35,991 nt of DNA, taken from Euzebyales bacterium. GTDB taxonomy: Bacteria > Actinomycetota > Nitriliruptoria > Euzebyales > JAHELV01. A program made the position numbers and the translations under genes. Below, piece after piece: positions 13,429-34,270 of this stretch; position 1 is the stretch's first letter; every line of letters begins with the position of its first letter. The stretch is from NCBI GenBank assembly GCA_036374135.1, contig DASUUK010000046.1:1-35991 (forward strand). The letters are read 5' to 3'. Below the pieces are notes generated by a model. That model was not told the origin of the DNA and ran no database searches. It was given only the letters and a program-made list of their open reading frames with translations.

Positions 13429-13454
13429 CGCGCCAGGGGCGGGTGCCCGACCGT

Positions 13455-14035: not shown

Positions 14036-14100
14036 CACCCGCGGTCCGTGAGGCCGAGTACAGATGCGCGAACAGAAGCGACAGCGAGGACTGACCCACC

Positions 14101-14490: not shown

Positions 14491-14705
14491 CGGACGGCTC
14501 GGCCAGACGAGCGATGTATCCGTCGCCTCCGGCTGACGAGCGTTGAGCACACCATCCTCGCGGTACGGGTCGGCGCGGGCGGACCGGGCGCTAGGATCCA
14601 GCGACGCTGAGATCGAGGTCTGGAGCCATCACGACGACGCCGTTCCCGATCCGGCTCGATCACAGCCGAGTCGCGACAGGGATCACGCTGCATGCTGCTG
14701 ACGAC

Positions 14706-15374: not shown

Positions 15375-15398
15375 CGACCATGGGCGATCTGCATCCGC

Positions 15399-15896: not shown

Positions 15897-16073
15897 TGCG
15901 CTCTCCTGCCTCGTTTCCGACAACCGCGGCCGTGTGACAGGCACCCGGCCCACGGCGCTGCCACCGGTCAGAACGGCAACCGACCGCGTAGATACGCCGC
16001 ACGCGCCAGCGGGGCCGCAGCTGGGCGACCGCCGCGACCATTGACGTCGTCCCCGGGTGGCCCGGGCGAGGCC

Positions 16074-17360: not shown

Positions 17361-17371
17361 GCGCGCGCTCC

Positions 17372-19486
17372 TCAGCCGCGGGGGAGCCCGCTGTACCAAC
17401 GGGTCTCTTCGATGGCGGCCGCGGGATCGATCACGCCGAAGCCGGCGTCCTTGCGCCACTGGTAGTCCGCCCCGGCGAGCGGCCGGGACGTGCGACGCAG
17501 GATCCCGCTGATCTGTGGGGCGGTCAGCCGTGGCTCGATGGCGAGCATGAGGCCCACGACGCCGGCCACCAGAGGACTCGCCATGGACGTCCCGGTCATG
17601 GTGGTCCACCGGTCGGCTGGACCGCGGCGTGCGAATCCGTTCGCGGCGACGATGTCGGTCCCGGGCGCTGCGAGATCCGGCTTCGGCCGTCCGTCGCCGG
17701 TCGGCCCGTCGCTGCTGCTGTTGTTGATCATGCGGTTCGTGTCGTCGTAGTTCGTGACCGACACGACCCGCTGCCCGCACGCCAGCGAGCTGACAGTCGA
17801 TTCGTCGCTGTGCGTGCGCGCCGAGAAGTAGGAGGGGAACCGCCACGCGTTGACGCTGGCGCCGATCGGCCCGAGGCGGCGCGGATCATCGCGTTCGATC
17901 CAGGCGTGGTACCGACCGTCACGGATGTGATGACCTTGCAGGCGGACGAGCCAGGTCCCCGCGCGCACGCCGACCACCTCGCCGCTCGACGCGAAGAATG
18001 GCGCGAGGAACACCGAGATCCGATTCATCCCGTTGGCCGGGTAGTACAGCTCGTTGTAGATGCTGAGCAGCGTGCCGTCGGTGAGCTGGTGGTTCTCGAC
18101 GTGCTCGCCGCCGGTGATCGGGCCCACCCATGGCAGTCCCGGCGGTTTGACCGAGACCTCGACGCGGTCCTGCGACGAGTACCAGACCTCCATCTCGTTC
18201 TCGGACACGTCGGCGACCGTGTTGCCGACGACCTGCCACTCGAGGTCGGACACGAGTCCGGCGGCGGAGATGTGCCCCCGATGGTGGATCGGGCCCGTGA
18301 CGAAGCTGGGGGCCGCGGCGTGCTCCGGGGACACATGACCGGCGTTGCCGGCTGCCACGCAGACGGCACGCCCCGGATATGACAGCGCCGCGTCGATCCA
18401 CCGGCTGACAGCGCTCGTTCCGTCGTGCGCATGGCCGTTGGTCCCGAGGCTGATGTTGATCGACACGGGCAGCGGACGGTCCAGACCGCGCTCTCGGCCC
18501 ATCTCGCCCGCCATGGCGAACAGGTAGTCGACGGCGTGCGCGAGGCGGGTCGAGTCGTAGAACGAGCGGCGGCGGTCCTCGGCGTCGGGATCGAGTGCCA
18601 GCAGCACGGCGGCGATCGGCGCGCGCCGGCACACGCCGTGCGCGCCGGCGGCGATGCTCGCGACGTGCGTCCCGTGCGACCCCGGCACCCGTTGGGACTG
18701 CGGCTCCAGCCGCCACGCCGGCAGACCACCCTGCCGCTCGGACGCGAGCGCGGCGTCGAGCTCGGGTTTGTGGAACTCGGCACCATAGTCCTGGATGCCC
18801 GGCGCCGAGGCGCCTCGTCGCACGGCGGGCGACACCCTGGCCGTGCCGGCCTGGTCCCAGATGCGCGCGAACCTCGTCCCGTGGTCGTCGACGAACTCGG
18901 GGTGCGAGAAGTCGAAACCTTCGACGTCGATGATCCCGATGAGGACGTCCTCGCCGTACCCGTGGACGTCGGCGTCGCCGAAGGCGCGCTCGGCGGACGG
19001 TGGAGCGGTCGACCGATCCACCGATCGGTCCGGTGTCGGAGCCGACAGCGGCTGCCCCGGCTCGATGTAGGCGACCTCGGGTCGCCGTTCGAGCGCCGCG
19101 ACCTGATCGAGTGTCAGCTCAGCGGTCAGTTGGTCGTCTCGCCGCGCCGTCACGGCCCTGCCGCTGCGTGCGGCGACGGTCGAGTCGGTGATCACCGGCG
19201 ACGCGGCGGCGTCCCGCAGGCGCACGAACACCGAGACCTCCACCTCCGGCACCGTTGGCGCACCGCGAGCGTGGACGGTGTCCCGTTCGTCCAACCCGGC
19301 CGCAGTCGTCAGCCGGACCCGGTCACCACGAACGGCTGGCGTCGTCCCGACCTGCGCGTCACTCAGCGCCCGCAGCGCCGCGGCGTGCTCGGCACGGATG
19401 ACGTTGTGCCTCGTGCTGCCGGTCGCCATGAGTTGCAGCTTCGGATCGATGCGACGCACGGATCCGCGAACGTTCGGCGGTCTCAT
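17372..19486 (-). CDS. S8 family subtilisin-like serine peptidase
   Basis: A 704-residue subtilase. An N-terminal region of about 180 residues includes a propeptide-like stretch (LTAELTLDQVAALERRPEVAYIEPG). The catalytic residues are Asp187 (IIDVEGFDF), His271 (SHGTHVASIAAG), the oxyanion Asn381 (VAAGNAGH) and Ser634 (TGTSMASP). Between Asn and Ser a roughly 150-residue beta-rich insertion (EVWYSSQDRVEVSVKPPG onward) resembles the jelly-roll insert of Csp-type subtilases. No signal peptide or transport motif is visible, so an intracellular enzyme is likely. The ATG at 19486 is well spaced from GGAG. It heads the S8-MBL operon; upstream lies a 134-base gap to the TauE-family gene on the same strand. 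Confidence 0.93.
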   Translation of the reverse strand: MRPPNVRGSVRRIDPKLQLMATGSTRHNVIRAEHAAALRALSDAQVGTTPAVRGDRVRLTTAAGLDERDTVHARGAPTVPEVEVSVFVRLRDAAASPVITDSTVAARSGRAVTARRDDQLTAELTLDQVAALERRPEVAYIEPGQPLSAPTPDRSVDRSTAPPSAERAFGDADVHGYGEDVLIGIIDVEGFDFSHPEFVDDHGTRFARIWDQAGTARVSPAVRRGASAPGIQDYGAEFHKPELDAALASERQGGLPAWRLEPQSQRVPGSHGTHVASIAAGAHGVCRRAPIAAVLLALDPDAEDRRRSFYDSTRLAHAVDYLFAMAGEMGRERGLDRPLPVSINISLGTNGHAHDGTSAVSRWIDAALSYPGRAVCVAAGNAGHVSPEHAAAPSFVTGPIHHRGHISAAGLVSDLEWQVVGNTVADVSENEMEVWYSSQDRVEVSVKPPGLPWVGPITGGEHVENHQLTDGTLLSIYNELYYPANGMNRISVFLAPFFASSGEVVGVRAGTWLVRLQGHHIRDGRYHAWIERDDPRRLGPIGASVNAWRFPSYFSARTHSDESTVSSLACGQRVVSVTNYDDTNRMINNSSSDGPTGDGRPKPDLAAPGTDIVAANGFARRGPADRWTTMTGTSMASPLVAGVVGLMLAIEPRLTAPQISGILRRTSRPLAGADYQWRKDAGFGVIDPAAAIEETRWYSGLPRG

Positions 19487-19620
19487 CACAGCTCCGGTCA
19501 GAGGCGGTGTGCGGCGCCACGCGCATCGACCCGATCATCGTGACGACCGCCCGCTGCGCCCCGCGCGTTGGTGTCGCTGAGGCGCACAGTATGGTCGCCA
19601 CATCGGCGCAGTCAAGGCCG

Positions 19621-20337
19621 TCACAGGCGCACGAGCAGTCGCGCCGTGTAGCCCGCCATGACCGCCCAGAACAGCGTCCGGTACCCCCGCTCGCCGAGCT
19701 CGCGGTTGATGTAGCGACCGGATAGCGTGCCGACGATCATCAGCGGGATGGCAGCCACCGCAATGCGCAGATCCGTCGCACTCAACAGGCTGGCCTCGGC
19801 GAACACGGCCGCCTTGGTCGCGTCGCCGGCCAGCGAGGCCAGCGACGCGGCACCGACGAAGTGCCGGCGGTCCATCCGCAGGTTGCGGATGGCGACGCCC
19901 TTCAGCGGCCCGGACGTGCCGGAGAAGCCGGAGGTCGCGCCCGACACGAACGCGAGCGTCGGCGCTCCCACCCGCTGCAGCGCGATCAGGTCATATCGCT
20001 CCGCGAGCAGCGTCCCGACGAACATTGCGATCACCGTGACGGTGACGAGCGAGTCGGGAGCCGCGACGAGGAGGCTGGCGCCGACGGCCGCGCCGAGCGA
20101 GATCACCACAATGACGATCAACGCGCGACGGTACGGCAGTGTCGCGCGGTACGCCGCCACCTTGACGACGTTGTTGGCCGCGAGCAGCAGCGCCGCCAGC
20201 GCGATGCCGTGCTTCGTGCCGATGATCAGCGCCAGCGCCGGCACGAGGATCAACGAGCCTCCCAGGCCGGCCGCCGCCGACACGGTGAACGAGGAGAACA
20301 CGGCCACCAGGGCCAGCACCGCGGCAAGTGGCGTCAT
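19621..20337 (-). CDS. TauE/SafE family sulfite exporter-like membrane protein
   Basis: A 238-residue polytopic membrane protein with about seven hydrophobic segments. The N-terminal AAAGLGGSLILVPAL repeat motif and the second, related SGATSGFSGTSGPLKG motif after the middle mark the two halves of TauE/SafE anion exporters. It may export sulfite, sulfonates or other organic anions, but the substrate cannot be told. It splits the protease cluster and has its own promoter (TTGACA, 17 bases, TAGCGT at 20474-20446), so it may be a bystander. No strong ribosome site precedes ATG 20337. Confidence 0.88.
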   Translation of the reverse strand: MTPLAAVLALVAVFSSFTVSAAAGLGGSLILVPALALIIGTKHGIALAALLLAANNVVKVAAYRATLPYRRALIVIVVISLGAAVGASLLVAAPDSLVTVTVIAMFVGTLLAERYDLIALQRVGAPTLAFVSGATSGFSGTSGPLKGVAIRNLRMDRRHFVGAASLASLAGDATKAAVFAEASLLSATDLRIAVAAIPLMIVGTLSGRYINRELGERGYRTLFWAVMAGYTARLLVRL

Positions 20338-20445
20338 CGGGCGGCTACGCAGGCGATCGGAGGCACGAGGACCACCACAGACGCAATCGCCACCGCCGCG
20401 CCGGTGCGATGGCCGACCGTGACAATCCTCGCCTGAAGTGACGAC

Positions 20446-20474
20446 ACGCTATGGGGTGCAGCAATGTGTGTCAA
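20446..20474 (-). promoter_or_regulatory. Sigma-70-type promoter for the TauE-family gene
   Basis: On the minus strand a perfect -35 TTGACA (20474-20469), a 17-base spacer and a -10 TAGCGT (20451-20446) point towards the gene starting at 20337, leaving a leader of about 100 bases. Confidence 0.6.
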
Positions 20475-20639
20475 TGGCAGCGAAGGCGGCAGAAAGTGGC
20501 GCTGATCAGGCCGTGCCCGCTGACGTCTCGGTCGGCGGGGTCACGACGTCGATGTCCCATCACCGGTATCAGTCCTGCCCACCCGGGCTCTTGATCAGCG
20601 AACGGCACGTCGCGACGGTGACCACTCGATGAATTCAGC

Positions 20640-20668
20640 TTGTGCAATCAGGTACCGGAATGTATGCA
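20640..20668 (+). promoter_or_regulatory. Candidate promoter of the protease run
   Basis: TTGTGC (20640-20645), a 17-base spacer and TATGCA (20663-20668) lie about 75 bases before the start of the EAD-trypsin gene, in locally AT-richer DNA. Both hexamers match the consensus only in part. Confidence 0.35.
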
Positions 20669-20744
20669 TCGTGCCAGCGGTCACGAGCTGCCGGCGTGCG
20701 GGCCGGCGTGAGCGCTCGCTGCATCATTGACGGAGGGCAGCCAC

Positions 20745-22010
20745 GTGACGACGGATTTCTCCGGATATCTGACCGCTGAACAGCTGCGTGTCGTGCACAA
20801 CGCTGCGGTCGCGGCCGGGCTCACCCGCTCAGACGACCATCTCGACGTGTTGCTGGCGGGTCTGCCACGCGACTTCGTTGGATCGCTCCCCGGATCCGGC
20901 GAAGACCCGGCCGCCCGCCTGTCGGCGCAGCTCAGGACGCTCAACACCGTCCACAACCTCAGCGACGGCAACGTGCCGCTGTTGACCTGGCTGCAACAGG
21001 CGACCGCGCTCGCAAGCGACGGCCGGCCGGCGGACGTGTTCGAGGCCGCGATCGACCACGTGAGCCACACGACGGCCGCGGTGCCGCCGGCGGTCGCCGC
21101 GCAGCTGCGCGCGGCGCCACCACGAGCAGGCGCGGGCCCGGACACGCGCGGTGGACCGATCACGCGGGGGACTCCCACCGAGGCGCCGCCGGCCATCAAC
21201 ACCGACGTCCTGCCCGAGGCGTTGGTCGCCGGATCCGATCAGACGGTGGAGATAGCGTTCCTGCAGGGCGCGCTGACCAGCGCCAAGTCGGTGGTCAAGC
21301 TGCTGGTGCACCGGCACGAGGAAGGTGACCCGGTGTTCGAGGCCGGTGACGAGCCATGGCTCATCAACGGCACGGGATGGTTCGTCGGCCCGGATCTCGT
21401 GATCACCAACCACCACGTCATCAATGCCCGCCGCACGGCCCCCGTTGCGGAAGATGACGCGTCACCCGAGGACTTCCGGCTGCAGGCGGAGCACACCACC
21501 GTCATCTTCGACTACCTCGAGGACCAGGTGCCGTCGGTCACGGCCGACACCGGCGACGACGCGCTGCTGGCCGCCGACAAGGAGCTCGACTTCGCGATCC
21601 TGCGCGTTCCTCCCGCCGACCCGCCGCGCGACCCGCTCAACCTGCGGAGGAACCCCATCCGCAAACGTCCACAGCAGGCACTCGGTACCCGGGTCAACGT
21701 CCTGCAGCACCCGAACGGCGACCCGATGCGGCTCGGCTTCCGCGACAACTTCGTCGTGCTCGGCGACAACGACTGGCTCGCGTACCTGACCGACACCCAG
21801 TTCGGCTCGTCCGGTTCACCCGTGTGCGACGACGGTTGGTTCGTCGCCGCGCTGCACTCCGGATCGCGCAGCATCTCGTCCACCGGACTGGAGATCCGCG
21901 GCCAGAGGGTGCGTCGGGAGAACTACGGCATCCCGATCAGCAGGATCCTCACGCACCTCGAGGAGAACCTGCCCGACCTGCACTTGGAGATCCTCGCCGC
22001 CCAACCCTGA
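20745..22010 (+). CDS. Trypsin-like serine protease with N-terminal EAD1-like domain
   Basis: A 421-residue protein; GTG 20745 follows GGAGGG at seven bases. Residues 1-90 form an all-helical domain (LTAEQLRVVHNAAVAAGL, then a run ending VPLLTWLQQATALA) whose pattern resembles effector-associated domain 1, a death-like adaptor found in bacterial conflict systems. After a Pro/Thr-rich linker (about 110-155) comes a V8/trypsin fold with His224 (ITNHHVIN), Asp282 (KELDFAILRV) and Ser356 (QFGSSGSPV); the triad is complete. There is no signal peptide, so it is probably a cytoplasmic effector recruited through its N-terminal domain. It is the first gene of the plus-strand protease run. The EAD assignment is by pattern only and is less certain than the protease call. 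Confidence 0.87.
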   Translation: MTTDFSGYLTAEQLRVVHNAAVAAGLTRSDDHLDVLLAGLPRDFVGSLPGSGEDPAARLSAQLRTLNTVHNLSDGNVPLLTWLQQATALASDGRPADVFEAAIDHVSHTTAAVPPAVAAQLRAAPPRAGAGPDTRGGPITRGTPTEAPPAINTDVLPEALVAGSDQTVEIAFLQGALTSAKSVVKLLVHRHEEGDPVFEAGDEPWLINGTGWFVGPDLVITNHHVINARRTAPVAEDDASPEDFRLQAEHTTVIFDYLEDQVPSVTADTGDDALLAADKELDFAILRVPPADPPRDPLNLRRNPIRKRPQQALGTRVNVLQHPNGDPMRLGFRDNFVVLGDNDWLAYLTDTQFGSSGSPVCDDGWFVAALHSGSRSISSTGLEIRGQRVRRENYGIPISRILTHLEENLPDLHLEILAAQP

Positions 22011-22043
22011 GAGCCCGAACGACCCCCGGAACAGGAGATGACG

Positions 22044-22913
22044 ATGTCAGACATCACGTTCGAACCCCGCCGATGTGCGACCCACGACATCAGCATGGCG
22101 GACCGCTCCCGCCTCGCCGCGCTGGAAGGCCGCTACCTCGACGAGACCCGCATCGCCGAGGCGGACCTCAGAGTTGAGATCGCGGTGGCGTTCATCCACG
22201 TGGTCGACGGCGACGCGGGAACCGTCACGGCCGAGCAGCGGCACAAGCAGATCGAGGTGATGAACGAGGCGTTCGAGTTCATGGGCATCTCGTTCACCTT
22301 CGACGAGAACGACGTCACGGTGGTAGACGACCCGGCCTTCTTCGCGATGGGACACGGCTCGCTGCGTGAGCGCAACTGCAAGTCTCAGAACCAGATGCTG
22401 GATCCGACGCAGGGCTTGAACTTCTACACCGCGGAGCCCGGCGGTGGCCTGCTCGGATGGGCGACGTTCCCCGTTGACATGGAAGGCGACCCCGACATGG
22501 ACGGCGTCGTGATGCTCCATACGACCCTGCCCGACGGCGCCATGGCTCCCTACAACCTCGGGCTGACCGCCGTGCACGAGGTCGGGCACTGGCTGGGCCT
22601 GTACCACACGTTCCAGGACGGCTGCTTCGGCCTCGGCGACGAGGTGAGCGACACACCCGCGCACGGCGGGCCCAACTTCGGCAAGCCCGCGGACGAGGAC
22701 CAGCCCCACAACCTGTGCGAGTCGGCTCCGGCGGGAGCGGACTGCCCCACCCACAACTACATGAACTACGTCGACGACGACTGGATGAACGAGTTCACGC
22801 CAGGACAGAAGGAGCGTGCGTGGGCGCAGATCGGCATGTTCCGGTCCGACCTCCTGGCCGCCGGCGCCGAGGAAGCGGGGTTCAAGGAGGCCGGTCAGGC
22901 GTACGTGTGGTGA
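22044..22913 (+). CDS. M43 (pappalysin/cytophagalysin) zinc metalloprotease
   Basis: A 289-residue metzincin. The extended zinc motif HEVGHWLGLYH (His178, Glu179, His182, His188) and the Met-turn in NYMNYVDDDWMNEFTPGQKERAW (Met240) are diagnostic, with cysteines around NCKSQ, DGCFG, NLCES and ADCPT as in the family. ATG 22044 is best spaced from AGGAG; ATG 22038 directly abuts it. Family members are usually secreted, but the N-terminus here (MSDITFEPRRCATHD) is no signal peptide, which is notable. The 33-base gap to the trypsin gene and the shared strand suggest one operon. Substrate unknown. Confidence 0.92.
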   Translation: MSDITFEPRRCATHDISMADRSRLAALEGRYLDETRIAEADLRVEIAVAFIHVVDGDAGTVTAEQRHKQIEVMNEAFEFMGISFTFDENDVTVVDDPAFFAMGHGSLRERNCKSQNQMLDPTQGLNFYTAEPGGGLLGWATFPVDMEGDPDMDGVVMLHTTLPDGAMAPYNLGLTAVHEVGHWLGLYHTFQDGCFGLGDEVSDTPAHGGPNFGKPADEDQPHNLCESAPAGADCPTHNYMNYVDDDWMNEFTPGQKERAWAQIGMFRSDLLAAGAEEAGFKEAGQAYVW

Positions 22914-22968
22914 CGCCGGGCGCCCTGCACGACACTCCCCTGCCGGAGCCGGCAGGCACGAGGTGACG

Positions 22969-24612
22969 ATGGTCCGGGTGCTGCTGGACGCCGATGGCCT
23001 GCTGCGGAGGTTCGGCCGCCTGGATCCGGACGCCGCTGGGCTCGCCACGGCGTTGACGCGTCTGCAGGAGCGTGTCGCCCGCCGGCCTCGACCGCGAGCC
23101 GCGTCGGCGGCCGAACGGGACCGTCAGCTGATGCTCGGACTTGACGTGGCGGCCGTGCGGTACACCGGCGCCGCAACCGCCTCGGACGGCCACCACGTCG
23201 CCGGCCTGCCGCTCGTCAGCCTGCCGGACGCGGCCGACCTGGGACCCGGCGACCTGTACTTCACCGCTGCCCACACGCGGCTCGCCGCCGCGCTGGGACA
23301 GGGCGCGAGCGGCTACATCGTGGGCCTCGACCCGGCGGTGAGCGATCGCGTCGTCGACGTCTCGACGGTGCCTCGTCTGGTCGAGGAGGCGTTGCGGCTG
23401 CCCACCGCCCGACCTCGATCGGCGGCGACGCGGCGCGGCGGCCTCCTGGCCATCGACGTCCCGTCCCGGGCCCATGCGCGCGCCGAGGTACTCGATGTCA
23501 TCCGTGCCGATCCCAATGCCGACTGGGTGGTCCTGGGAGCGCACCTGCTGCTGTACACCGAGGACCCCGATCTGGAGGATCAACTGGCCGAGCGTCCGGG
23601 CGTCGACCGCCTGTCCTACCGCGTCAGTCGTGACGACCTCCTCGTCTTCCTGCCCGGCGTCGCGGATGGCGACGGCGACGACGGCGGCAGCGGCGGCGGA
23701 GCGGGGCGCAGGGGCGCCGACGACGGGGCGGGGCGCCGGGGCGCCGGACCCGGTGGGCAGCGCGCCACCGACGCCGGGGCGGGCGGCCGCCGTGCGGCGG
23801 GCACACCCACGCCCAGCGGCGATTCGGGCGTGCTGTACGGGCGCGACGGCGTGATCGTGCGGGAGCAGGCGTCTGGTGGACCGCGCTCGGCCGGGGCGGC
23901 ATCGGAGATCTCGGCCGGGAACACGAGCGGGACGTGGTGGAGGTGGCACGACGTGCGACGGCGGTCGTTGGACATCGCCGGTGCCGGGGTAGCGGACGAG
24001 GGTCGACACCTCACGGCGACCGTGGACGACGACGAGGTCGAGACGTTCCGGGCGCGTGTCACCGACCTGGCCGCGACACTGCGTCCACGACTGCGGCCCC
24101 CGATCGGCGAGACGCTCGTGTCGGCGCTGCGGGAACTGGCCGGTCCAGCTGCCGTCGCCGATGCATGGCCGGGGGACGCACTCGGTTCCCCGGAGGACCC
24201 GCCGCGCGACGTCGCGTGGCAGACACCGTATGCCGATGCCGAGTCCGATGAGCTCGTGATCCTGCGCCACGACATGACGGCGGTCGCCGGTGCGCCGGAG
24301 GTTGCTCACGCATCTGACGTCCCAGATCCTGCCGCCCTCGTCCGTCCGGTCGCCGTGGCGCTGGCGACCGCCGAGTTGCTCAGCCGCCGTCCGGCGGCAC
24401 CCGGCGCACTGCACATCCTGCAGCTTCCTGCGTCTGGTGACGGCGGCGCGGGACCGTCACCGGAGGCGCTGTTCCTACTCGCCAGCGAGCGCAACCGTGT
24501 GGGCGCGGTCGCGACGTTCCCGTCGGACGCCGACGACGCGACCGCCCTGCGAACGGTCGCGCGCCTTGCGACGCCGGCATCGTCGCGCGGACGCCCAGGC
24601 GGTGACGCATGA
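22969..24612 (+). CDS. Unrecognised two-part protein of the protease run
   Basis: A 547-residue protein that I cannot place in a family. ATG 22969 (MVRVLLDADGLLRR) follows GAGG closely; GTG 22963 is an alternative. Residues 1-228 look like one alpha/beta region (DLYFTAAHTRLAAALG, then YIVGLDPAVSDRVVDVST, and DWVVLGAHLLLYTEDPDLE). Residues about 231-286 are a low-complexity Gly/Arg/Ala/Asp linker. Residues 287-547 are a second region with a VLYGRDGVIVREQ start, a TWWRWHDVRRRS segment and a C-terminal part ending LHILQLPASG and FLLASERNRVGAVATF. No membrane segment, signal peptide or known catalytic motif is visible. It sits between the M43 and M28 genes (55-base gaps either side), so it is probably cotranscribed with them and may be their substrate, scaffold or inhibitor; that is inference. 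Confidence 0.75.
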   Translation: MVRVLLDADGLLRRFGRLDPDAAGLATALTRLQERVARRPRPRAASAAERDRQLMLGLDVAAVRYTGAATASDGHHVAGLPLVSLPDAADLGPGDLYFTAAHTRLAAALGQGASGYIVGLDPAVSDRVVDVSTVPRLVEEALRLPTARPRSAATRRGGLLAIDVPSRAHARAEVLDVIRADPNADWVVLGAHLLLYTEDPDLEDQLAERPGVDRLSYRVSRDDLLVFLPGVADGDGDDGGSGGGAGRRGADDGAGRRGAGPGGQRATDAGAGGRRAAGTPTPSGDSGVLYGRDGVIVREQASGGPRSAGAASEISAGNTSGTWWRWHDVRRRSLDIAGAGVADEGRHLTATVDDDEVETFRARVTDLAATLRPRLRPPIGETLVSALRELAGPAAVADAWPGDALGSPEDPPRDVAWQTPYADAESDELVILRHDMTAVAGAPEVAHASDVPDPAALVRPVAVALATAELLSRRPAAPGALHILQLPASGDGGAGPSPEALFLLASERNRVGAVATFPSDADDATALRTVARLATPASSRGRPGGDA

Positions 24613-24667
24613 AGCCGCGGGCGACGTCGCCTCCGCGACCGACGGCCACGACATGCGGGAGACCGAC

Positions 24668-25927
24668 ATGCAGTACCTGGTGACCGACGCCGCCGCCGCA
24701 GCACGACGCGGGTCCGGCGACCAGACGGGCGTCCGGTGGACGCGGTTCGACGATCAGACGATCGTCTGGGGCGCCGACCTGCGATCAGCCGCGCGCGAGG
24801 CCTCGCGGGGTGCCGACGGCCGTTCCGAGGACGTCGCGCCATCCGAAGCGGAACAGCTCGCACTGGTGGTCCAGGTCGGACGCGCCTTCCAGGACGCCAA
24901 TCCTGACGTTCCGGTGGTTCTGGACAAGGGGCGGTACCTGGTCATCGACGTCGGTCGAACCGCGCCGGCCACGGACGACACGTGCTGGACGGTGCGCCCA
25001 CTGGTGCCCGACACGGTGGTGCTGGCCCGCCGACCCGCGACGCGGCGTTCGCCGACACCGTGGGTGATCCCGTTGGTCAACGCCGCGTCGGAGGCGTCGT
25101 TCACGACCGCGCTCGAGCACCTGGCCGGGCTGCCGACCCGCCACTCGACGAGCCAGCACTTCGACGACGCTGCTGAGTGGGCGTCCCAGCGACTGCGGGA
25201 CGTCGGCTACGACGTACGCCGCGATCCGGTCACGCTGCCCGACGGCACGCGCTCCTCGAACGTTCTCATGGACCAGCCCGGCGTGGGACCCGAGCCACGC
25301 GATCTCGTGGTCGTCACGGCACACCTCGACTCGGTGAACACGCTTGGCGGGCCGTCCGCCGACGCGCCCGGCGCTGACGACAACGCCAGTGGCGCGGCGG
25401 CTCTGCTCGAGATCGCGTCTGCGTTCGCCGACCACTCCGCTGTGCACGATCTGCGCCTCATCCTGTTCGGCGGCGAGGAGCAGGGACTGCACGGCAGCCG
25501 CCAACACGTCGCTGGGATGTCCGCCGTCGACCGCGCCCGCACGACGGCGGTCATCAACATGGACATGGTCGGCACGTTGAACACGACGGAGCCGACCGTG
25601 CTCCTCGAGGGAGCGACCGTGTCACAGGCACTGATCACCGACCTGGCGAACGCGGCGGCGACGTACACGGCGCTGGCCGTGCAGACGTCGCTCACGCCGT
25701 TCGCAAGCGACCACGTTCCGTTCATCGATGTCGGCGTGCCTGCCGTCCTGACGATCGAGGGCGCTGACCGCTCCAACGCCAACGTGCACACGGTCTCCGA
25801 CACCGTCGAGCACATCCATGCGCCGCTCGCGCTCGACATCATCCGCATGAACGTCGCCGCCGCGGCGACGTACCTGGGCCACGACGACAGTGGCGCGACT
25901 CACGCCACCATCCGCCGAGCAGTCTAA
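24668..25927 (+). CDS. M28 family zinc peptidase
   Basis: A 419-residue protein. A 130-residue N-terminal region of unknown type (FDDQTIVWGADL, then PVVLDKGRYLVIDVG) precedes an M28 aminopeptidase-type domain. The zinc ligands and base are His219 (VTAHLDSV), Asp237 (GADDNASGA), Glu270-Glu271 (FGGEEQGLHGS), Asp299 (NMDMVG) and His374 (NVHTVSD), all present. ATG 24668 has GGGAG at six bases; GTG 24602 and ATG 24653 are alternatives. There is no signal peptide, unlike most M28 peptidases. It closes the plus-strand run and converges with the TIR-STAND gene after 52 bases. Confidence 0.9.
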   Translation: MQYLVTDAAAAARRGSGDQTGVRWTRFDDQTIVWGADLRSAAREASRGADGRSEDVAPSEAEQLALVVQVGRAFQDANPDVPVVLDKGRYLVIDVGRTAPATDDTCWTVRPLVPDTVVLARRPATRRSPTPWVIPLVNAASEASFTTALEHLAGLPTRHSTSQHFDDAAEWASQRLRDVGYDVRRDPVTLPDGTRSSNVLMDQPGVGPEPRDLVVVTAHLDSVNTLGGPSADAPGADDNASGAAALLEIASAFADHSAVHDLRLILFGGEEQGLHGSRQHVAGMSAVDRARTTAVINMDMVGTLNTTEPTVLLEGATVSQALITDLANAAATYTALAVQTSLTPFASDHVPFIDVGVPAVLTIEGADRSNANVHTVSDTVEHIHAPLALDIIRMNVAAAATYLGHDDSGATHATIRRAV

Positions 25928-25979
25928 AGCTCTAGTTCAGATCTAGCCGGCTCGACGCGATGGCAGGATGCTCGAGTGT

Positions 25980-28900
25980 CTACTCGAGGTCGAAGGTCGC
26001 CCGCTCGCTGGATGTCAGGTCGCGCGTCGTACGGTGATCCACCAGATCCACGAGCTCGGCATCGGCCACGCAGAGCCGGCAGCGGAACAGCCACGCGGTC
26101 CCACTCGGGCCGGTGGTCAGCACCAGCTGCCCGGTCCGATCATCGACAGCATCGACGAGGCCGCGTCGGGTCGTGCGTAGCACCGACTGAACCTCACCCG
26201 ACCCGGCGTTCCAGACGCGGGCGCTGCCATCGAGACTGGACGTCAGCACGGTGTCGCCGTCGGCGGTGAACCGGGCGGACACCACGTCATCTCGGTGCCC
26301 GCTCAACGTGGTGAACGCCGCCGTGTCGCCGAGGGTGTAGACCCATGCATCACCCGAGGCCCCTGCGAAGACGGCCTGCGTTCCGTCCGGGCTGACGTCC
26401 ACAGCGTTGATGGTGCCCTGACCAGCCGGGAACGTGCGAACGTGGTGGCCGTCATCCGTCGCCCACATCTGACCGTCGGAGTCGCGACCGACGGCGATGA
26501 GCGCATCCGCCGACGGCGTGAACGCGAGGCCGAGCACCTCGTGTCCGTGCGTGACCTCCAGCCGTCGATGGACCCCCACCCGATCGTCGATGTCCCACAC
26601 GACAACGGTGCCGTCGGCTGTGTCGGTGGCGGTGGCGAGCATGCTTCCATCGGGTGCGAGCCGCGAGAGGACGGTCGGACCGGTCTGGCTGGCCGATAAC
26701 CCGATGCGCCGTCCCGTGTCGGCGTCCCAGGCACCGACCGTGCCGTCTTCGCCGGTCGACACGACGACGCGTCCGTCCGGAGTGAACACCGCATCGCTCA
26801 CTGCGCCCTCGTGACCTGTCAACGCGTGGATCTCTTGCCCGGTGGCCACGTCCCACACCCGAGTGATCCCGTCCAGTCCCCCGGTGACCAGACGGCGGCT
26901 GCGGGAGTCGAACGAGGCGCCCACCAGGGGGCTCGCACCTTCGTCGAGGACGCTGAGCTCACGACCGTCGGATGCGCGCCACACCCGCGCCGTCCCATCG
27001 TTGCCGATCGTTGTCACGAACCGACCGTCCGGACTGAGTGCCGCGGTCCCGACGCCACCCGGCTGTGAGAAGACACGTGCCTCCTCGGACGTCGTGCTCC
27101 AGATGCGCGCGGTGCCGTCAAAGCTCGCAGAGACGACGGTCCGACCATCCGGGCTGAAGCGGCCGCTCGACACCGAATTCCCGTGACCCCGCATCGTCAG
27201 TATCAGGTCGCCGCGCAGCCGCAGCAGACCACTGTCGTCACGCCGACGGCTCATGTCCCAGATCCGCACGGTGGTGTCCGCGCCCGTCGTCGCGAGCCGC
27301 AGCCCATCCGCCGAGAAGTCGGCGTCGCGTACGAAGCCGTCGTGATCAGGCATCTCGCGCACGACCGTGCCGGATCCGACGTCCCACACCCGCACCGTGC
27401 CCTCGGTGCCAGTGGTCACCAGCACGTCCCCACCGGGGCTGAAGACCGCGCGGATGACCCGCCCGACCTGGCCCGGCAGTGCCTCGCGGAGCGCACCGGA
27501 CGGCACCGAGAAGATCCTCGCCGTCCCGTCGTCGCTGACGGTGACCGCGATGGAACCGTCCGGGCTGGCGACCACATCACGCACACGGTCGGTGTGGCCG
27601 TCGAGAGGTGCGAGGACCTCGTCGGACGACCAGCGCCAGATGCGGCCGGTACCGTCGAAGCTCGCGGTCACGACCACGTCTCGACCGGGCACGAACGTCG
27701 CCGCCGCGACCACGTCGCGATGGTCTCGCAGGACGCCGACCCTGACGCCTGTGTCGCTGCGCCATACAGCGGCCGTGCCGTCATCGCTGGCGGTGACGAC
27801 GAGAGAGCCGTCGTCGTTGAACCGCGCGGATCGTAGAGCTGCGCTGTGTCCCCGGAGGACCGCGCGGAGCCTGCCGGTCGCGACGTCCCACACGATGGCC
27901 GTGCCGTCGCTGCCGCCGGTGACCAGCGCCTTCCCATCGGGGCTGAACTCGGCGGCGCGCACCGCACCGTCGTGGCCTGTGAGCTCGCGCTCGGTCTCGC
28001 CGGTGCGTGGGTTCCACAGCCACACGCCACCGTCCTCCGAGGCGGCGACAGCGAGACGTCCCGACGGGTCGAGGTCTGCGACGTTGAGGCGGCTGCCGTC
28101 ACCGGGGAACCGGACGCGCACGTTGGAGGCGATCAGCCCCTCCCGCAGTGTTCGCAGTGCCTCGTCCGTGTGACTGACGTCCCACGCCTCGCGGCCCAGC
28201 AGCAGAGTGAGCTCGGGATCGACGTCGAGCGTCGCCTGTGCCGCCAACGCCAGGCCTCGCGATCGTGCGGTGGCGGAGCGGCGCAGCACGAGCGCGGTCA
28301 AGAACAGCGAGCCCGCGAGGCCGAGCAGCAGGACGACGGCGACCGCGCGGAACAGGCGGGCTGCTTTCCGCTGGCCCTCGGCGATCTGGCGCGCGTCGTC
28401 GAGCTCTCGCTGCCGTTGTTCCTCCGCAGCGCGTCGCTGCTGGTCCCGTACCGCGACGCTGGCGTCGAAGAACGCCGTCTCGGTGTCGCTGAGCGAGACA
28501 TGTCGTGACGCGGTCCACGCCAGCACCTCGTCGAGGCGGGCGCCCCGATACAGCGCACCGTCGTCGTGATCGAGCCGTACCCACTCCTGTGCCGCCTCGG
28601 TCATGCGACGGTGGATCAGCAGGCTCGCGCGGTCCTCCTCGACCCAGGACTTCAACCGCGGCCAGGCGCGGATGAGCGCCTCGTGCGACACGTCGACCCA
28701 GCGGTCCTCAGGGCCCGATCCACTCGTGATGAGCAGCCGCGCGTCCACCAGCTGTGACACGATGTGCTCGAACGCGACCCGATCCGACGCCGCCGAATCG
28801 AGCTCGGCCCATCGAGCGCGGCGCCGCGTGGCCTCGGTCGCGTCGCCAGGCTGGGTGAGCCGGAGGATGGCGTCGCGCATCACCTGCTGCTGTGCCGGGT

Positions 28901-30260
28901 CGAGGGACGCGTAGATGGCGTCGGCCCTGGTGGCGACAGCTCCGCTGACGCCTCCGGTGTCGCGGTACCCCTCCAGCGTCAGCATGTTCCCGAGCCGGCG
29001 CTTCCACAGCTCGAACAGCGCGTGCTCAAGCAACGGCAGCGCGCCGGGTTGTCCGACGACATCTTCGACGATCACATCGACGAGGCCCTCCTCGAACTGC
29101 AGGCCGGCCGTGAGGGCGGGCTGCTCGATCGCCAGCCTCTGGTCGTCGGTGGCCATGGGGCTCACGAGGAACTGGTGGGTCGCGGCGTAGCGGGCCAGCT
29201 CGGGGTACGTCGAGCAGTGGCCGTAGAAGTCCGCGCGCAGGGTCAGCACGATCGTCGCCGATCCGTCTGGCACCGTGCCGGCGTACAGCAGGTTGGCGAC
29301 GAACGCGCTCCGTTCGTCCTCGTTGCTGCAGAGGGTGAAGACCTCTTCGAACTGGTCGACGACCCACAGGACGTGGTCGGTGGCCTCGCGCTCAGCCACC
29401 AGCAATGCGGACGCGAGGCCGAGGCTGCGTGGGTCGTCGGCCAACCCGTCGACGGTGGCCTGCATGCTGCGCGACCCGTCCGCTCTCGCGAGCTCGGCCG
29501 CAAGGGCGGTGAGCGGCGTCGCGCCTGGTCGCAACGTCCGTATGAGCCACCGCTCACTGCGGGGCAGTGCACCCGCACGCAGCGCCGGGATCAGTCCGGC
29601 GCGGACCAGTGACGATTTCCCGCTCCCGGACGAGCCGACGACCGTGAGGAAGTTGGTGGACTTGAGGAGCTCGACGAGGCGCTGGGTCTCGGCATCCCGC
29701 CCGAAGAACACATGCGCATCGTCTTCGTCGAACGGACGGAGCCCGAGGTAGGGCGCCACGTCGGTTGTGCCTCCGGGAACCGCTGTTGCCCCGGCGGGCA
29801 CACCCTTGATGGCACTGGCGAGGGCCTGCAGGCTCTCAGCGTCCAACGCACCGGCGCGGAGGTCGACCCATGTTCGGTTGGTCAGGAACGGTGGCAGCAG
29901 GCCGTCAGGAAGCGGATCGGGCAGGCCGGGCAGCAGAACCGGCACGAGACGGAACCCCGACTCCTTGGCGGCCCTGTCGAGCGCGACGTGCAACTCCTCG
30001 CGGGCCCAGTCGCCGATGCCGTTCGGACCGATGAACATCGCGCACGCGGCCGACCGGAGCAGGCCGTCCTCGAGCGCGGTCTGCCACGGACTCCCAGGAG
30101 CGAGCTCCCAGACGTCCAGCCACGGTCGCAGGCCCATCTCGCGCAGACGGCGGGCTACGCGCTCGACAGCGGCCTTGTCCCGGCTGTTGTGCGACAGGAA
30201 GACATCGAACGCATCGGCGGGTGCTCCCCGCGCGGCGTCAGGATCGGCGGACGCGGTCAC
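25980..30260 (-). CDS. TIR-nSTAND1-TM-WD40 repeat protein (putative immune receptor)
   Basis: A 1426-residue protein if started at GTG 30260, whose bases overlap the upstream TGA as GTGA; the frame continues 22 codons further to 30326. Residues 17-130 are a TIR domain (FDVFLSHNSRDKA, WLDVWEL, DWAREEL with Glu89 at the NADase glutamate position). Residues about 171-560 are an nSTAND1 NTPase (YLGLRPF and FFGRDAE lead-in, Walker A GSSGSGKSS 209-217, Walker B LWVVDQFEE 298-306). A coiled-coil, Gln/Glu/Arg-rich stretch (604-636) and one membrane helix (639-660) lead to about 15-16 WD40 repeats (DGTARIW, DGTAIVWD types), probably two propellers. TIR as NADase or signal generator, STAND as switch and WD40 as sensor is the known logic of such proteins; its trigger is unknown. 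Confidence 0.93.
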   Translation of the reverse strand: MTASADPDAARGAPADAFDVFLSHNSRDKAAVERVARRLREMGLRPWLDVWELAPGSPWQTALEDGLLRSAACAMFIGPNGIGDWAREELHVALDRAAKESGFRLVPVLLPGLPDPLPDGLLPPFLTNRTWVDLRAGALDAESLQALASAIKGVPAGATAVPGGTTDVAPYLGLRPFDEDDAHVFFGRDAETQRLVELLKSTNFLTVVGSSGSGKSSLVRAGLIPALRAGALPRSERWLIRTLRPGATPLTALAAELARADGSRSMQATVDGLADDPRSLGLASALLVAEREATDHVLWVVDQFEEVFTLCSNEDERSAFVANLLYAGTVPDGSATIVLTLRADFYGHCSTYPELARYAATHQFLVSPMATDDQRLAIEQPALTAGLQFEEGLVDVIVEDVVGQPGALPLLEHALFELWKRRLGNMLTLEGYRDTGGVSGAVATRADAIYASLDPAQQQVMRDAILRLTQPGDATEATRRRARWAELDSAASDRVAFEHIVSQLVDARLLITSGSGPEDRWVDVSHEALIRAWPRLKSWVEEDRASLLIHRRMTEAAQEWVRLDHDDGALYRGARLDEVLAWTASRHVSLSDTETAFFDASVAVRDQQRRAAEEQRQRELDDARQIAEGQRKAARLFRAVAVVLLLGLAGSLFLTALVLRRSATARSRGLALAAQATLDVDPELTLLLGREAWDVSHTDEALRTLREGLIASNVRVRFPGDGSRLNVADLDPSGRLAVAASEDGGVWLWNPRTGETERELTGHDGAVRAAEFSPDGKALVTGGSDGTAIVWDVATGRLRAVLRGHSAALRSARFNDDGSLVVTASDDGTAAVWRSDTGVRVGVLRDHRDVVAAATFVPGRDVVVTASFDGTGRIWRWSSDEVLAPLDGHTDRVRDVVASPDGSIAVTVSDDGTARIFSVPSGALREALPGQVGRVIRAVFSPGGDVLVTTGTEGTVRVWDVGSGTVVREMPDHDGFVRDADFSADGLRLATTGADTTVRIWDMSRRRDDSGLLRLRGDLILTMRGHGNSVSSGRFSPDGRTVVSASFDGTARIWSTTSEEARVFSQPGGVGTAALSPDGRFVTTIGNDGTARVWRASDGRELSVLDEGASPLVGASFDSRSRRLVTGGLDGITRVWDVATGQEIHALTGHEGAVSDAVFTPDGRVVVSTGEDGTVGAWDADTGRRIGLSASQTGPTVLSRLAPDGSMLATATDTADGTVVVWDIDDRVGVHRRLEVTHGHEVLGLAFTPSADALIAVGRDSDGQMWATDDGHHVRTFPAGQGTINAVDVSPDGTQAVFAGASGDAWVYTLGDTAAFTTLSGHRDDVVSARFTADGDTVLTSSLDGSARVWNAGSGEVQSVLRTTRRGLVDAVDDRTGQLVLTTGPSGTAWLFRCRLCVADAELVDLVDHRTTRDLTSSERATFDLE

Positions 30261-32212
30261 TGCGCGATCTGGGAGTTCGGTCGGATCGAGCCGATCCGAC
30301 GATGCCCCCTGAGGAGCGCGGTCCACTTGTCGGTGCGCCCTGGCCGCGGTCGGGTCGCCGGCCGATCGCGCAACGGCAGGGTCAGGAATGCCTCAAGACC
30401 ATGGAACAGCACGATCAGGCGGAACGGAATGTAGCCCGCGAGCCACGGCACCGCCCGCCACTGTCCTGCGGCGACGAGCACCACCGCCGCCACGGCGAGG
30501 CGCGCGACGGTCGCCGCTGCGATCAGGTCGAGCGACTCTGCGATCCTGGCGCCGCCCTCGGGCGCGGCCGCAGCGACCATGCCCACCAGGAGCGGGAACA
30601 GCAGGACACGGAGGTGGATCGCGACGATCCCGAGCGGGAAGTACCAGAAACCCATCGGGCCCTCCGCGAACCGGATCAGACCACGGTTGCGCGATGCCAC
30701 ATGATAGCCAGCGCGGGCCCAACGGGTGCGTTGCTCCCGCAACTCGCCGAGGGTCGCCGGCACGGCGGTTCGTGCCCTGACCTGCGGATCCACCACGATG
30801 CGAAGGCCGCTACGCGCGATGCGCAAGGTGATGTCGGTGTCCTCGCCGTTGATTCCCTCCGCGAAACCGTCGAGTTGTGCGAGCAGGTCCCGGCGGTACA
30901 TGGCGACGTTGCCGGGCAGGCACATGACCGACTGCACGGCGTTGTGGGCGACCCGCCTGATCGCGACGTTGAGTTGCACCTCGATCAGGCGCATCCGGCT
31001 GATCCAGGTCGTCGTGCCGTTCGGCAGCGGCAGCCCGCCCGCAGCGCCGACGCCTTCGGCGGCGAAGTGGGCCACCAGCAGCCGGATCGCGTCCTCGTCG
31101 ATGATCGTGTCGGCGTCCACGCGCAGGACGAGGTCCTCGGTGATCTGTAGCAGCCCCATGTTCAGCGCGCGGGACTTGCCGGGCTCGCCGCACATGAGCA
31201 CGTCGCCGCGCAGGGTCGGAGATCGGCGGAGATGGCGCGTCGCAACGGCGACCGTGTCGTCCCGCGAGGTGTTGTCGACGACGACGACGCGGCACCGCCC
31301 CTCGTACCGCACCTCGGCCCGCTCGATGGCGGCCAGGCATGATCCGATGTGCTCGGCCTCGTCGAGCGCGGGAATGAGGATCGCGACCGACGGCAGAGTA
31401 CGCGTGGCGGGCCGCTCCGCCGCACGTCGTCCGAGCCAGTACAGCAGCGGCGTCTGTGCCAACGAGAACGGGAGCATTCCCGTGCTCAGCACGAGGACCG
31501 GCAGGGTGCGGAAGAACAGCGATGGCCTGTCCAACAGCGCGAAGACGACGGCGTACGTCGCGGTGGCGACCACGGCCGTCAGTGCGAACAGGACGACCGA
31601 TGCCCGCCGTTGCGTGTGCACCGACTGGCGGTGGACGGCCACAGCAGGTGGAAGGCGGTAGTGCATGACCACGGAGCCGAGCAGGCCGAGTGCCCCCGCC
31701 ACCAGCGGTTGCAGCATCTGCGTCGCGGGGATGTGCTCGACGGGGCGCAGATGCGACCACCATCCGGCCGCGACATCATGGACCCCGATCAGCACCGTGT
31801 AGACCGCCGCGGCGGTAACAGCTGCCTGCAGTCGACGCCACGACTGCCCGCTGGCCGCTATGGCGAGCAGGGCGACGACGACGGCCACGACGATCCGGGT
31901 GCGTGTTGCAGTGGGCCCGATGTTCGCCACGCCGCCCAGCGCCTGGAGGATCCGCCGGTACGCCGGTGACGGGTCGGGGACGACCCGGTAGATGCCCGCA
32001 GCGACGGCCGCGAAGACAATCAGCAGTGCCGGCGCCGTGCTCGGCCGCCGCACGACGGCATACCGCGCCGGCGTGGAGTCCGCGGTGATCGCCGTGACTG
32101 CCCGTCGGTGAGGCCGCACTCGCGACCCCCGTACGCCGATACTGGACCACGGCGCGCGCCTTCTGAACGTGGGTGCATTCAGACGGCCGTGGTCTACGAG
32201 TGGGGGCGCCAT
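30257..32212 (-). CDS. Membrane-embedded family 2 glycosyltransferase
   Basis: A 651-residue processive-type GT2. An Arg-rich N-terminus is followed by several membrane helices (about residues 60-270), a cytoplasmic GT-A domain (VAILIPALDEAEHIGSCL, VVVVDNTSRDDT, the DxD in RVDADTIID near residue 365, NGEDTDITLR and the QRTRWARAGYH motif of processive synthases), then C-terminal membrane helices. This is the layout of NodC/hyaluronan/poly-GlcNAc type synthases; the polymer is unknown. ATG 32212 has AAAGGA at about eight bases. Its stop overlaps the TIR-STAND start by four bases, so the two are translationally coupled. Confidence 0.88.
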   Translation of the reverse strand: MAPPLVDHGRLNAPTFRRRAPWSSIGVRGSRVRPHRRAVTAITADSTPARYAVVRRPSTAPALLIVFAAVAAGIYRVVPDPSPAYRRILQALGGVANIGPTATRTRIVVAVVVALLAIAASGQSWRRLQAAVTAAAVYTVLIGVHDVAAGWWSHLRPVEHIPATQMLQPLVAGALGLLGSVVMHYRLPPAVAVHRQSVHTQRRASVVLFALTAVVATATYAVVFALLDRPSLFFRTLPVLVLSTGMLPFSLAQTPLLYWLGRRAAERPATRTLPSVAILIPALDEAEHIGSCLAAIERAEVRYEGRCRVVVVDNTSRDDTVAVATRHLRRSPTLRGDVLMCGEPGKSRALNMGLLQITEDLVLRVDADTIIDEDAIRLLVAHFAAEGVGAAGGLPLPNGTTTWISRMRLIEVQLNVAIRRVAHNAVQSVMCLPGNVAMYRRDLLAQLDGFAEGINGEDTDITLRIARSGLRIVVDPQVRARTAVPATLGELREQRTRWARAGYHVASRNRGLIRFAEGPMGFWYFPLGIVAIHLRVLLFPLLVGMVAAAAPEGGARIAESLDLIAAATVARLAVAAVVLVAAGQWRAVPWLAGYIPFRLIVLFHGLEAFLTLPLRDRPATRPRPGRTDKWTALLRGHRRIGSIRPNSQIAQ

Positions 32213-32304
32213 CGTGCCGTCCTTTCGCCCCCGCGCCGGCGACTGGCGGACGTCGTTGGCAAAGTCGATCGGTCATGTGGCCCGACAGGCGACGAGAGGC
32301 ACCG

Positions 32305-32517
32305 GTGACCACGTATCCCAGTGAGGAGGCGGTGACGCAGTCTGATACAATCGGCGGCCTGTCGAGCGAGGACGACGAGACTCCGGGTCGCACCCGGACA
32401 CCCAAGTTCTTCGGTTTTCGGCGCTTCCCACGGTATCTTGATGCGCTCCGTAGTTGCCAGTATTTCTTGAGTTGCGATCGTGAGGAAGATCGGCCGCGCA
32501 CACGCGATGACGCATGA
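32305..32517 (+). CDS. Possible 70-residue protein, unknown
   Basis: A GTG start at 32305 follows GAGAGG at five bases. The product is acidic at first (GGLSSEDDETPG), then has an aromatic/basic stretch (KFFGFRRFPRYLDALRSCQYF) and a charged end. Codon third positions are much less G/C-biased than elsewhere in the window, which argues for horizontal origin or against coding. Its TGA overlaps the ATG of the next small ORF as ATGA. No family recognised. Confidence 0.35.
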   Translation: MTTYPSEEAVTQSDTIGGLSSEDDETPGRTRTPKFFGFRRFPRYLDALRSCQYFLSCDREEDRPRTRDDA

Positions 32518-32669
32518 ACATGACCGAGTCGATCACTCGCGACGGGGACGTAGATGCACTTGTCTCGGCTGCGCCACAGCAGTGCTTCCCATGGTGGTCG
32601 ACGCCGGATGCGGGGTCCTGCGTCACCGAGCCGAATGATGGCAGCCCCATCGTCACCGACCCGACGTAG
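32514..32669 (+). CDS. Possible 51-residue peptide, unknown
   Basis: Starts MNMTESITRDGDVDALV and ends in a Pro/Asp/Thr-rich tail containing CFPWW and SCVTEP, with a TAG at 32667. The ATG overlaps the stop of the 70-residue ORF by four bases, which suggests translational coupling because no ribosome site of its own is present. A leader-like first half and a Cys/Trp-rich second half recall a modified-peptide precursor, but no modification enzyme lies beside it. It may also be a chance frame. Confidence 0.35.
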   Translation: MNMTESITRDGDVDALVSAAPQQCFPWWSTPDAGSCVTEPNDGSPIVTDPT

Positions 32670-32946
32670 TGGACAAGACCGTCCCGACAGCGTCGTCACC
32701 CAGGGGCACTCCGGGACATCAGCCGGGCCGACCGGCATCGGCAGCATGCATCCAGTCGCCGCCGCAACTCGGGCGATCTGGGAGGTGCCGCAGGCGTGCG
32801 ACGGCCAGTTCGACGGTCACGAGCCGCTGCCTACTGCGCCGGGGATCGGGAGGCTGTGACTCGCTGCGGCGCACCTCGAAGAGTGCCCCGTGGTGTGGGC
32901 GTGGAACGACGTGCGAACGCGCCGGACGCGCTACATTGCGGAGACC

Positions 32947-33020
32947 GCCGGGATAGCTCAGCAGGTCAGAGCAACGCTCTTGTAAAGCGAAGGTCGCCGG
33001 TTCGAATCCGGCTCCCGGCT
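32947..33020 (+). tRNA. tRNA-Thr(TGT)
   Basis: Acceptor GCCGGGA pairs with TCCCGGC, discriminator T. The D-arm is TAGCTCAGCAGGTCAGAGC, the anticodon loop CTTGTAA gives anticodon TGT, and the T-arm contains GGTTCGAATCC. CCA is not encoded. The integrase gene on the other strand ends inside this tRNA, which marks its 3' half as the attachment site of an integrative element. Confidence 0.95.
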
Positions 33021-34229
33021 CTGCATTTCCGCTGGTGAGGGCGATTTCGTGGTCTGTTCGTCGGCGCGTGGTCCGTCGGCCGACCACAGATCGACCACAA
33101 CGTCGTCCGAGGGGGCGCCGTCGCCGGGCCCTGAAAGCGAACGTCGCGCGTCCCGCGTCGTCCGGTACGTCGCGTCGAGCGCATCGGCGAACGCGTCGTC
33201 GAGCGACGGGAAAAGGTGCCCGTAGCGGTCGAGTGTGACGGTGATGCTCGAGTGGCCGAGCCGCTGCTGGATCGCCTTCGGGTGTCCGCCCTCGGCGATC
33301 AACAGCGCCGCGTTCGAGTGGCGAAGGTCGTGGAATCGCACGCCGTGGAGGTGCTCGGACAGCGTCCGGCGGACCGTCGGCTTGAAGATGCGTTGGTAGT
33401 AGTTCGAGTGGCGCATCGGCCCGCCCTGCGGAGCGGGGAACACGGGCGTGTCGGGGCTCGCGTCGCCGAGGTGTTCGCGGAGCTGCTCGACGAGGAACGC
33501 CGGCGGCTTGACAGCGCGCCGGGAGCTGTAGGACTTCGGGTCGTGCTCGACCAGGTCGCCGCGAACCTCCGACACAGCCGTCAGCACGACGACCTCGGCG
33601 TCGTCCAGCCGCAGGTGGCGGCGGCGCAGCGCGGCGATCTCGCCTGCGCGTAGCCCGGTGTAGGCGGCGAAGCGGACCATCAGGTCGTACGGCTCGGGCA
33701 TGCCGTCAGCCAGCGTGGCGATCTGGTCGGCGGTCAGGAAGTGCATCTCCTCGTGCGGCATCGGCGGCAGCTTGACGCCGACGCACGGGTTCTTGCGGAT
33801 GGCGCCGAGCTCGACCGCTAGGTCCAGCGTCTGCTTGGGCCTGCCGACCGCCTTGCGCACCTGCGCCGGTGAGACGCCGTCGCCGAGCATGTCGGTGATG
33901 AACCGGCGGACACGACGCTGGTCGATCGCGCCGACCGGCGTCTCCCCCAGCCGCGGCAGCACGTGGTAGCGCAACGTGTTCTCGTAGTTCATCAGCGTCT
34001 TGGGCTTCAGGTGGTACAGCGACGCGACCCACTCCTCGGCGATCGGCCCCAGCGGCCGGCGGGCGTTGTCGGGGCTGACGTACTCGCCGCGCTGCACGTC
34101 GACCGCGACGCGCGCCAGGAACTCATTCGCCGCCTTCTTGGTCGGGAACGCCTTGCCTCGCTGGTGGCCTTCGGGGTCCCGGTAGCGCGCCTCCCAGCTC
34201 CCCGACGCCTTCTGACGGACCGATCCCAT
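32958..34229 (-). CDS. Tyrosine recombinase/integrase (tRNA-Thr integrated element)
   Basis: A 423-residue phage-type integrase. An N-terminal AP2-like DNA-binding part (GSWEARYRDPEGHQRGKAFPTKKAANEFL), a SAM-like core-binding domain (LKPKTLMNYENTLRYHVLPRLGE) and a catalytic domain with Arg in TGLRAGEI, HDLRH, a GHSSIT helix and the Tyr in LDRYGH are complete. ATG 34229 follows GGGAGG at eight bases; an in-frame ATG at 34346 lies inside the IS and is not native. The last 20 or so residues (REPDSNRRPSLYKSVAL) are the antisense reading of tRNA-Thr, the classic sign of integration into the tRNA 3' end. The IS1380 element begins 24 bases upstream of the start, so the native promoter is displaced. 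Confidence 0.93.
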   Translation of the reverse strand: MGSVRQKASGSWEARYRDPEGHQRGKAFPTKKAANEFLARVAVDVQRGEYVSPDNARRPLGPIAEEWVASLYHLKPKTLMNYENTLRYHVLPRLGETPVGAIDQRRVRRFITDMLGDGVSPAQVRKAVGRPKQTLDLAVELGAIRKNPCVGVKLPPMPHEEMHFLTADQIATLADGMPEPYDLMVRFAAYTGLRAGEIAALRRRHLRLDDAEVVVLTAVSEVRGDLVEHDPKSYSSRRAVKPPAFLVEQLREHLGDASPDTPVFPAPQGGPMRHSNYYQRIFKPTVRRTLSEHLHGVRFHDLRHSNAALLIAEGGHPKAIQQRLGHSSITVTLDRYGHLFPSLDDAFADALDATYRTTRDARRSLSGPGDGAPSDDVVVDLWSADGPRADEQTTKSPSPAEMQSREPDSNRRPSLYKSVALTC

Positions 34230-34248: not shown

Positions 34249-34253
34249 CTAAG
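34249..34253. repeat. Target site duplication, left copy (CTAAG)
   Basis: CTAAG directly abuts the left inverted repeat and matches the bases directly after the right one (35852-35856). Removing the IS and one copy joins CCCCCCTACTAAG to GGGAATCGAACCCC. Confidence 0.85.
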
Positions 34254-34270
34254 CCTGGATCCACCGTTTC
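34254..34270 (+). repeat. IS left terminal inverted repeat
   Basis: CCTGGATCCACCGTTTC, identical to the reverse complement of 35835-35851. Confidence 0.92.

Follow-up and report, generated by a model that had tools for sequence, protein, structure and literature searches.

A predicted single-pass membrane receptor of TIR-nSTAND1-WD40 architecture and its overlapping glycosyltransferase gene in a genomic island of a Euzebyales bacterium

Introduction

In a Euzebyales bacterium, the gene for a TIR-nSTAND1-WD40 receptor overlaps the end of a gene for a membrane glycosyltransferase of family GT2, which raises the question of whether the two proteins form one functional module or are neighbours by accident. 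The window, that is, the whole stretch of DNA analysed (35,991 nucleotides), corresponds to one entire 36-kb contig from a draft MAG of 4.0 Mb in 115 contigs. A preliminary description of this DNA had proposed that the GT2 enzyme is a functional partner of the receptor, and that the receptor monitors an envelope glycan or its disruption. The usual view of bacterial NLR-like STAND proteins is that they detect invaders within the cell. In this study, the reading that we favour, with moderate confidence, is that the receptor is a STAND protein that crosses the membrane once, has a TIR NADase as its output and is carried as island cargo, and that the glycosyltransferase is its accidental neighbour.

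Results

The receptor gene (25980..30260, minus strand) encodes 1426 residues, in which a TIR domain (residues 20-145), an nSTAND1 NTPase (170-567), a membrane segment (639-659) and WD40 propellers (about 720-1390) follow one another. The domains named in the preliminary description are confirmed by Pfam matches to TIR_2 (29826..30203, minus strand; E 3.9e-25), nSTAND1 (28560..29753, minus strand; E 5.5e-129) and WD40 repeats from about residue 720 onward. The nSTAND1 domain is full length, scoring 431.5 bits against a curated cut-off of 27.1 over positions 1-378 of the 379 of PF20703, and it retains both Walker motifs (Walker A, GSSGSGKSS, at residue 209; Walker B, LWVVDQFEE, at 298). The TIR domain scores 89 bits with PF13676 and matches solved TIR NADases, and Glu89, put forward earlier as the catalytic candidate, aligns with a Glu conserved among known TIR NADases, AbTIR included; four related TIRs all share this residue. 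By its fold and this candidate Glu, the receptor would be a member of the TIR NADase family, and NAD cleavage is predicted. Among the PADLOC models, none for Avs matched the receptor; the only matches, weak ones, were to TIR and a handful of unrelated models. The propeller part, when folded alone by structure prediction, was all-beta with repeats, at a mean pLDDT of 59.8 that is too weak for blade counting or a fold search.

The receptor most likely starts with the GTG at 30260-30258, in frame with the 1426 residues ending at 25980. The sole other in-frame start is a GTG at 30326, which would add 22 residues. Because the TIRs of two full-length Caballeronia homologues begin even later, about eleven residues after 30260, 30260 is the better start, and the independent start at 30326 considered earlier is without support. 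These homologues (WP_213234664 and WP_213234667, of plasmid pNK84 of Caballeronia sp. NK8) are 1447-1466 residues long and share with the receptor the N-terminal TIR (45-46% identical), nSTAND1 (36-39%), a hydrophobic segment, a long C-terminal part and a location near an integrase. Unlike the window receptor, they have no glycosyltransferase beside them and adjoin ATP-binding and DUF4231 proteins; both are known from sequence alone.

The topology of the receptor depends first on the segment between the STAND and WD40 parts (AVAVVLLLGLAGSLFLTALVL; 28284..28346, minus strand; residues about 639-659), which has a 19-residue sum of -2.5 on a biological hydrophobicity scale. A strong segment of this kind, with a sum below 2 and at most 160 residues after the STAND domain, was found in 40 of 41 relatives having at least 300 residues beyond STAND. 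The membrane helix reported in the preliminary description thus stands, and the possibility that it is not membrane-spanning is contradicted. It is still conceivable, albeit unlikely, that the receptor is a cytosolic or peripheral STAND defence protein that senses an intracellular phage protein, either with a segment that does not cross the membrane or with its propellers inside. The WD40 repeats of APAF-1 sense inside the cell (PMC7159879), several nSTAND1 sensors are predicted to be cytoplasmic (PMC10907252), and the charges flanking the helix of the window receptor itself are balanced, with four K+R on either side. Besides the regular occurrence of one strong helix, however, three features of the family argue against this alternative. 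A second helix that could return the chain was seen in the propeller part of only one of the 41 relatives, as a weak candidate. The 15 flanking residues hold 6.0 K+R before the helix versus 2.8 after it. The cysteine count is even after the segment in 28 of 30 thinned relatives (p 4e-7 versus a fair coin) and before it in 13 of 30, although these counts come from related proteins that share ancestry and, for the most part, one C-terminal pair.

Paired cysteines are expected in disulfide-bonded outside domains. The propeller part contains two cysteines in the window receptor and an even number in 31 of 33 relatives, in which extra cysteines after the helix mostly come in pairs. The pair of the window receptor, 33 and 30 residues from the end, forms a CxxC, which could also bind a metal such as zinc in the cytosol. 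The relatives (L057-L120) carry a conserved C-terminal motif in three forms, AC..AGR.LT..EW....C, LT..EC....C and C..C...LT..ER, each with its cysteine pair at a different place.

Among 44 scanned relatives, the N-terminal outputs were BTAD in 31, protein kinase in 11, cyclase in 6 and TIR in 3; nSTAND1, helix and propellers are kept, and the N-terminal part is exchanged. Since these outputs are cytosolic and the chain crosses once, the propellers would lie outside, and the K+R bias and the even cysteines after the helix agree with this. Outside-facing propellers are thus probably a trait of the nSTAND1-TM-WD40 family. The earlier proposal that the propellers face the envelope holds best at this level; for the window receptor, with its balanced charges, an outside location is inferred from its relatives.

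The family is common in the phylum, with nSTAND1 relatives in 25 of 61 genomes, including this one. Like the window receptor, its BTAD- and kinase-nSTAND1-TM-WD40 proteins have an nSTAND1 domain (35-50% identical), a membrane segment, propellers and a C-terminal cysteine pair; these actinobacterial-type relatives differ in having SARP/BTAD, protein kinase or cyclase, rather than TIR, as the output. It could be asked whether the receptor, like perhaps its BTAD and kinase relatives, serves signalling rather than defence, with the TIR domain making a signal molecule. The prevalence of DNA-binding outputs in the family (31 of 44) speaks for this, but TIR versions are rare among phylum members, with one weak other match in 396 genomes, the nearest full-length TIR homologues lie beside the integrase of the Caballeronia plasmid, and the receptor sits in an island with conflict-type genes; we regard a signalling role as improbable. 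A match in genome G285 (L106) that starts at query residue 80 was rejected as a TIR homologue, as it gave no TIR match on checking. In viral contigs, no TIR relatives were confirmed, and none of three nSTAND1 matches in phage records covered the TIR domain.

The island is a lineage-specific insert of 19.5 kb (13431..32920) between a decayed gene (13084-13430) and a tRNA-Thr gene (TGT; 32947..33021, plus strand), and it is absent at this site in two genomes of the same genus, G001 and G002. In both, a block homologous to 12.0-13.4 kb of the window directly adjoins tRNA-Thr, and the match resumes at window positions 32921-32945; the decayed gene is shortened and frameshifted relative to its intact counterpart, which adjoins tRNA-Thr in G001. 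A tyrosine integrase gene (32958-34229, minus strand) overlaps tRNA-Thr with its 3' end, on the opposite strand and on the side away from the insert. G002 keeps a stretch similar to the integrase region (32947-34229). Beyond the integrase lies an IS1380 element (34249-35991) with 22-bp inverted ends, and the final 140 bases of the contig have matches at many sites in genomes of the same genus.

Within the insert, a conflict-type cluster (14706-25927) comprises genes for SLOG-in-TRPM (14706-15374), a metallo-beta-lactamase-fold protein with an adjoining subtilisin, TauE, EAD5-trypsin, M43, a 547-residue protein (22969-24612) and an M28 peptidase. The metallo-beta-lactamase-fold gene matches the LmuA and Avs1a models, and EAD5 has been described as recruiting the effectors of conflict systems (PMC7159879). 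The 547-residue protein, encoded between the EAD5-trypsin/M43 and M28 genes, could be placed in no family of Pfam or PADLOC, and 60 relatives yielded no homologue of it. A tRNA-Arg was called at 25029-25127, within the M28 gene and antisense to it. As read from the sequence, the insert is a young island of accessory and conflict genes at a tRNA hot spot for insertion, which would bring unrelated genes together.

The glycosyltransferase gene (30257..32212, minus strand) encodes 651 residues or a shorter form, with DAD and QRTRW motifs, and its GT2 domain is confirmed by a match to PF13641 (E 3e-30, 106 bits). The GT2 domain and the QxxRW motif of processive enzymes fit membrane polysaccharide synthases in the wide sense, and the protein is NodC/PgaC-like but far under the equivalog cut-offs (114.8 of 550 bits for NodC and 109.4 of 422 for PgaC). 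A protein search of 60 relatives gave identities of at most 35%, the best match being 30% identical (E 1.6e-25), and at E <= 1e-30 only one other match was found among the 396 phylum genomes sampled. The nearest homologues are encoded on a Rhodococcus qingshengii plasmid (WP_209448822, 40% identical over residues 260-543) and in genome G134 (37% in the catalytic part). Both are of similar size and adjoin a nucleotide-sugar-epimerase-like gene and an envelope-type gene, neighbours that in our own reading may be labelled SQD1-like, BcsB-like and HlyD-like; in contrast to the window enzyme, neither has STAND or TIR nearby. Six distant relatives in GTDB contigs were likewise not near STAND or TIR, no relatives were confirmed in viral contigs, and no remnants of the usual partner genes were found in the window. 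The most fitting reading is of an enzyme carried as independent cargo, an orphan resembling polysaccharide synthases.

The overlap itself is read directly from the DNA, as described before: GTGA at 30257..30260 (minus strand) joins the glycosyltransferase TGA (30259-30257) to the receptor GTG. No Shine-Dalgarno-like stretch was seen by eye upstream of this GTG, so re-initiation after the glycosyltransferase is plausible. A promoter scan of 25700-33100 gave no sigma-70-like site, the scan being uninformative for a GC-rich genome. In a survey of about 400 kb of the same genome plus the window, made with a home-made gene caller and based on stop positions, exact four-base overlaps were possible in 32 of 136 close same-strand gene pairs (24%), GTGA being the commonest type (18 of 32). 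The overlap is thus ordinary for this genome, is not above chance, and by itself says only that the two genes may be co-transcribed. A second GTGA overlap lies at 4453-4456 of the window, within a tandem pair of related genes at 3533-5388 that are about 80% identical over 269 nt.

We also asked whether the pair is kept elsewhere. No GT2 gene was found in 45 loci of nSTAND1-WD40 relatives (602 kb; GT2 profile from about ten sequences), and no STAND or TIR gene near glycosyltransferase relatives in 12 loci (STAND and TIR queries). The genes upstream of the nSTAND1 relatives do not recur and are unrelated to the glycosyltransferase and to each other. As far as surveyed, therefore, the pair is private to this genome, which rules out the glycosyltransferase as a conserved receptor partner and answers in the negative whether the two genes are adjacent in other genomes. 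That the two genes form one module whose propellers monitor the polymer or its disruption would accord with an overlap lacking a Shine-Dalgarno-like stretch, with propellers that probably face the envelope and with glycosyltransferases among conflict-system effectors (PMC7159879; GT4 in PMC8195603), but it is very improbable given a pair seen nowhere else in the loci surveyed, an enzyme so rare in the phylum, an overlap so common in this genome and homologues that keep other partners. The evidence that the receptor senses the glycan made by this enzyme is positional, and we consider that claim more improbable still.

Discussion

In the reading that we favour, namely a membrane receptor with a TIR output beside an accidental neighbour, the TIR and nSTAND1 domains would lie in the cytosol, one helix would cross the membrane, and about 14 WD40 blades would be outside. 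The propellers would bind a surface ligand, perhaps a product of a phage or of a rival, or damage to the envelope; nSTAND1 would then assemble in an ATP-dependent manner and bring the TIR domains together, so that NAD would be cleaved and the cell would stop growing or die. The ligand, the assembly, the NADase activity and the cell death are all proposed, and the sequence of steps is modelled on that of APAF-1 and further STANDs (PMC7159879, PMC13174449). The receptor gene would have arrived as cargo of the 19.5-kb island beside tRNA-Thr, with the GT2 gene as a separate cargo gene upstream. The four-base overlap probably gives co-transcription of the two genes and perhaps translational re-initiation of the receptor.

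The effector-NTPase-WD40 order is shared with APAF-1 and TEP1, the latter having a TIR-like NADase beside NACHT and WD40 (PMC13174449). However, these proteins are intracellular, belong to another STAND clade and have no described membrane helix between NTPase and propeller, so the likeness is one of working only. The nSTAND1 domain received its name in PMC8195603, and DGR-diversified nSTAND1 sensors are discussed in PMC10907252. Their conflict systems likewise have nSTAND1 between an effector, such as TIR or trypsin, and a sensor, but the sensors are FGS/C-type-lectin-like or other domains, several of them predicted to be cytoplasmic, and no description of membrane-spanning propellers was found in the passages considered. 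No experimentally tested nSTAND1-WD40 defence protein was found in the literature searched, and within the openly accessible literature considered, the outside-in topology of the nSTAND1-TM-WD40 family may be unreported.

In summary, this case warns that a four-base overlap in a GC-rich genome is not to be taken as a functional link. Beyond this locus, we lean slightly towards the view that a large STAND family, common in this phylum, senses from the outside in through extracytoplasmic WD40 propellers and has swappable cytosolic outputs, the output here being a death NADase, which would make this receptor a surface counterpart of cytosolic NLR-like defence. If the propellers do lie outside, bacteria would have STAND receptors that relay events at the surface straight to transcription, kinase, cyclase or TIR outputs.
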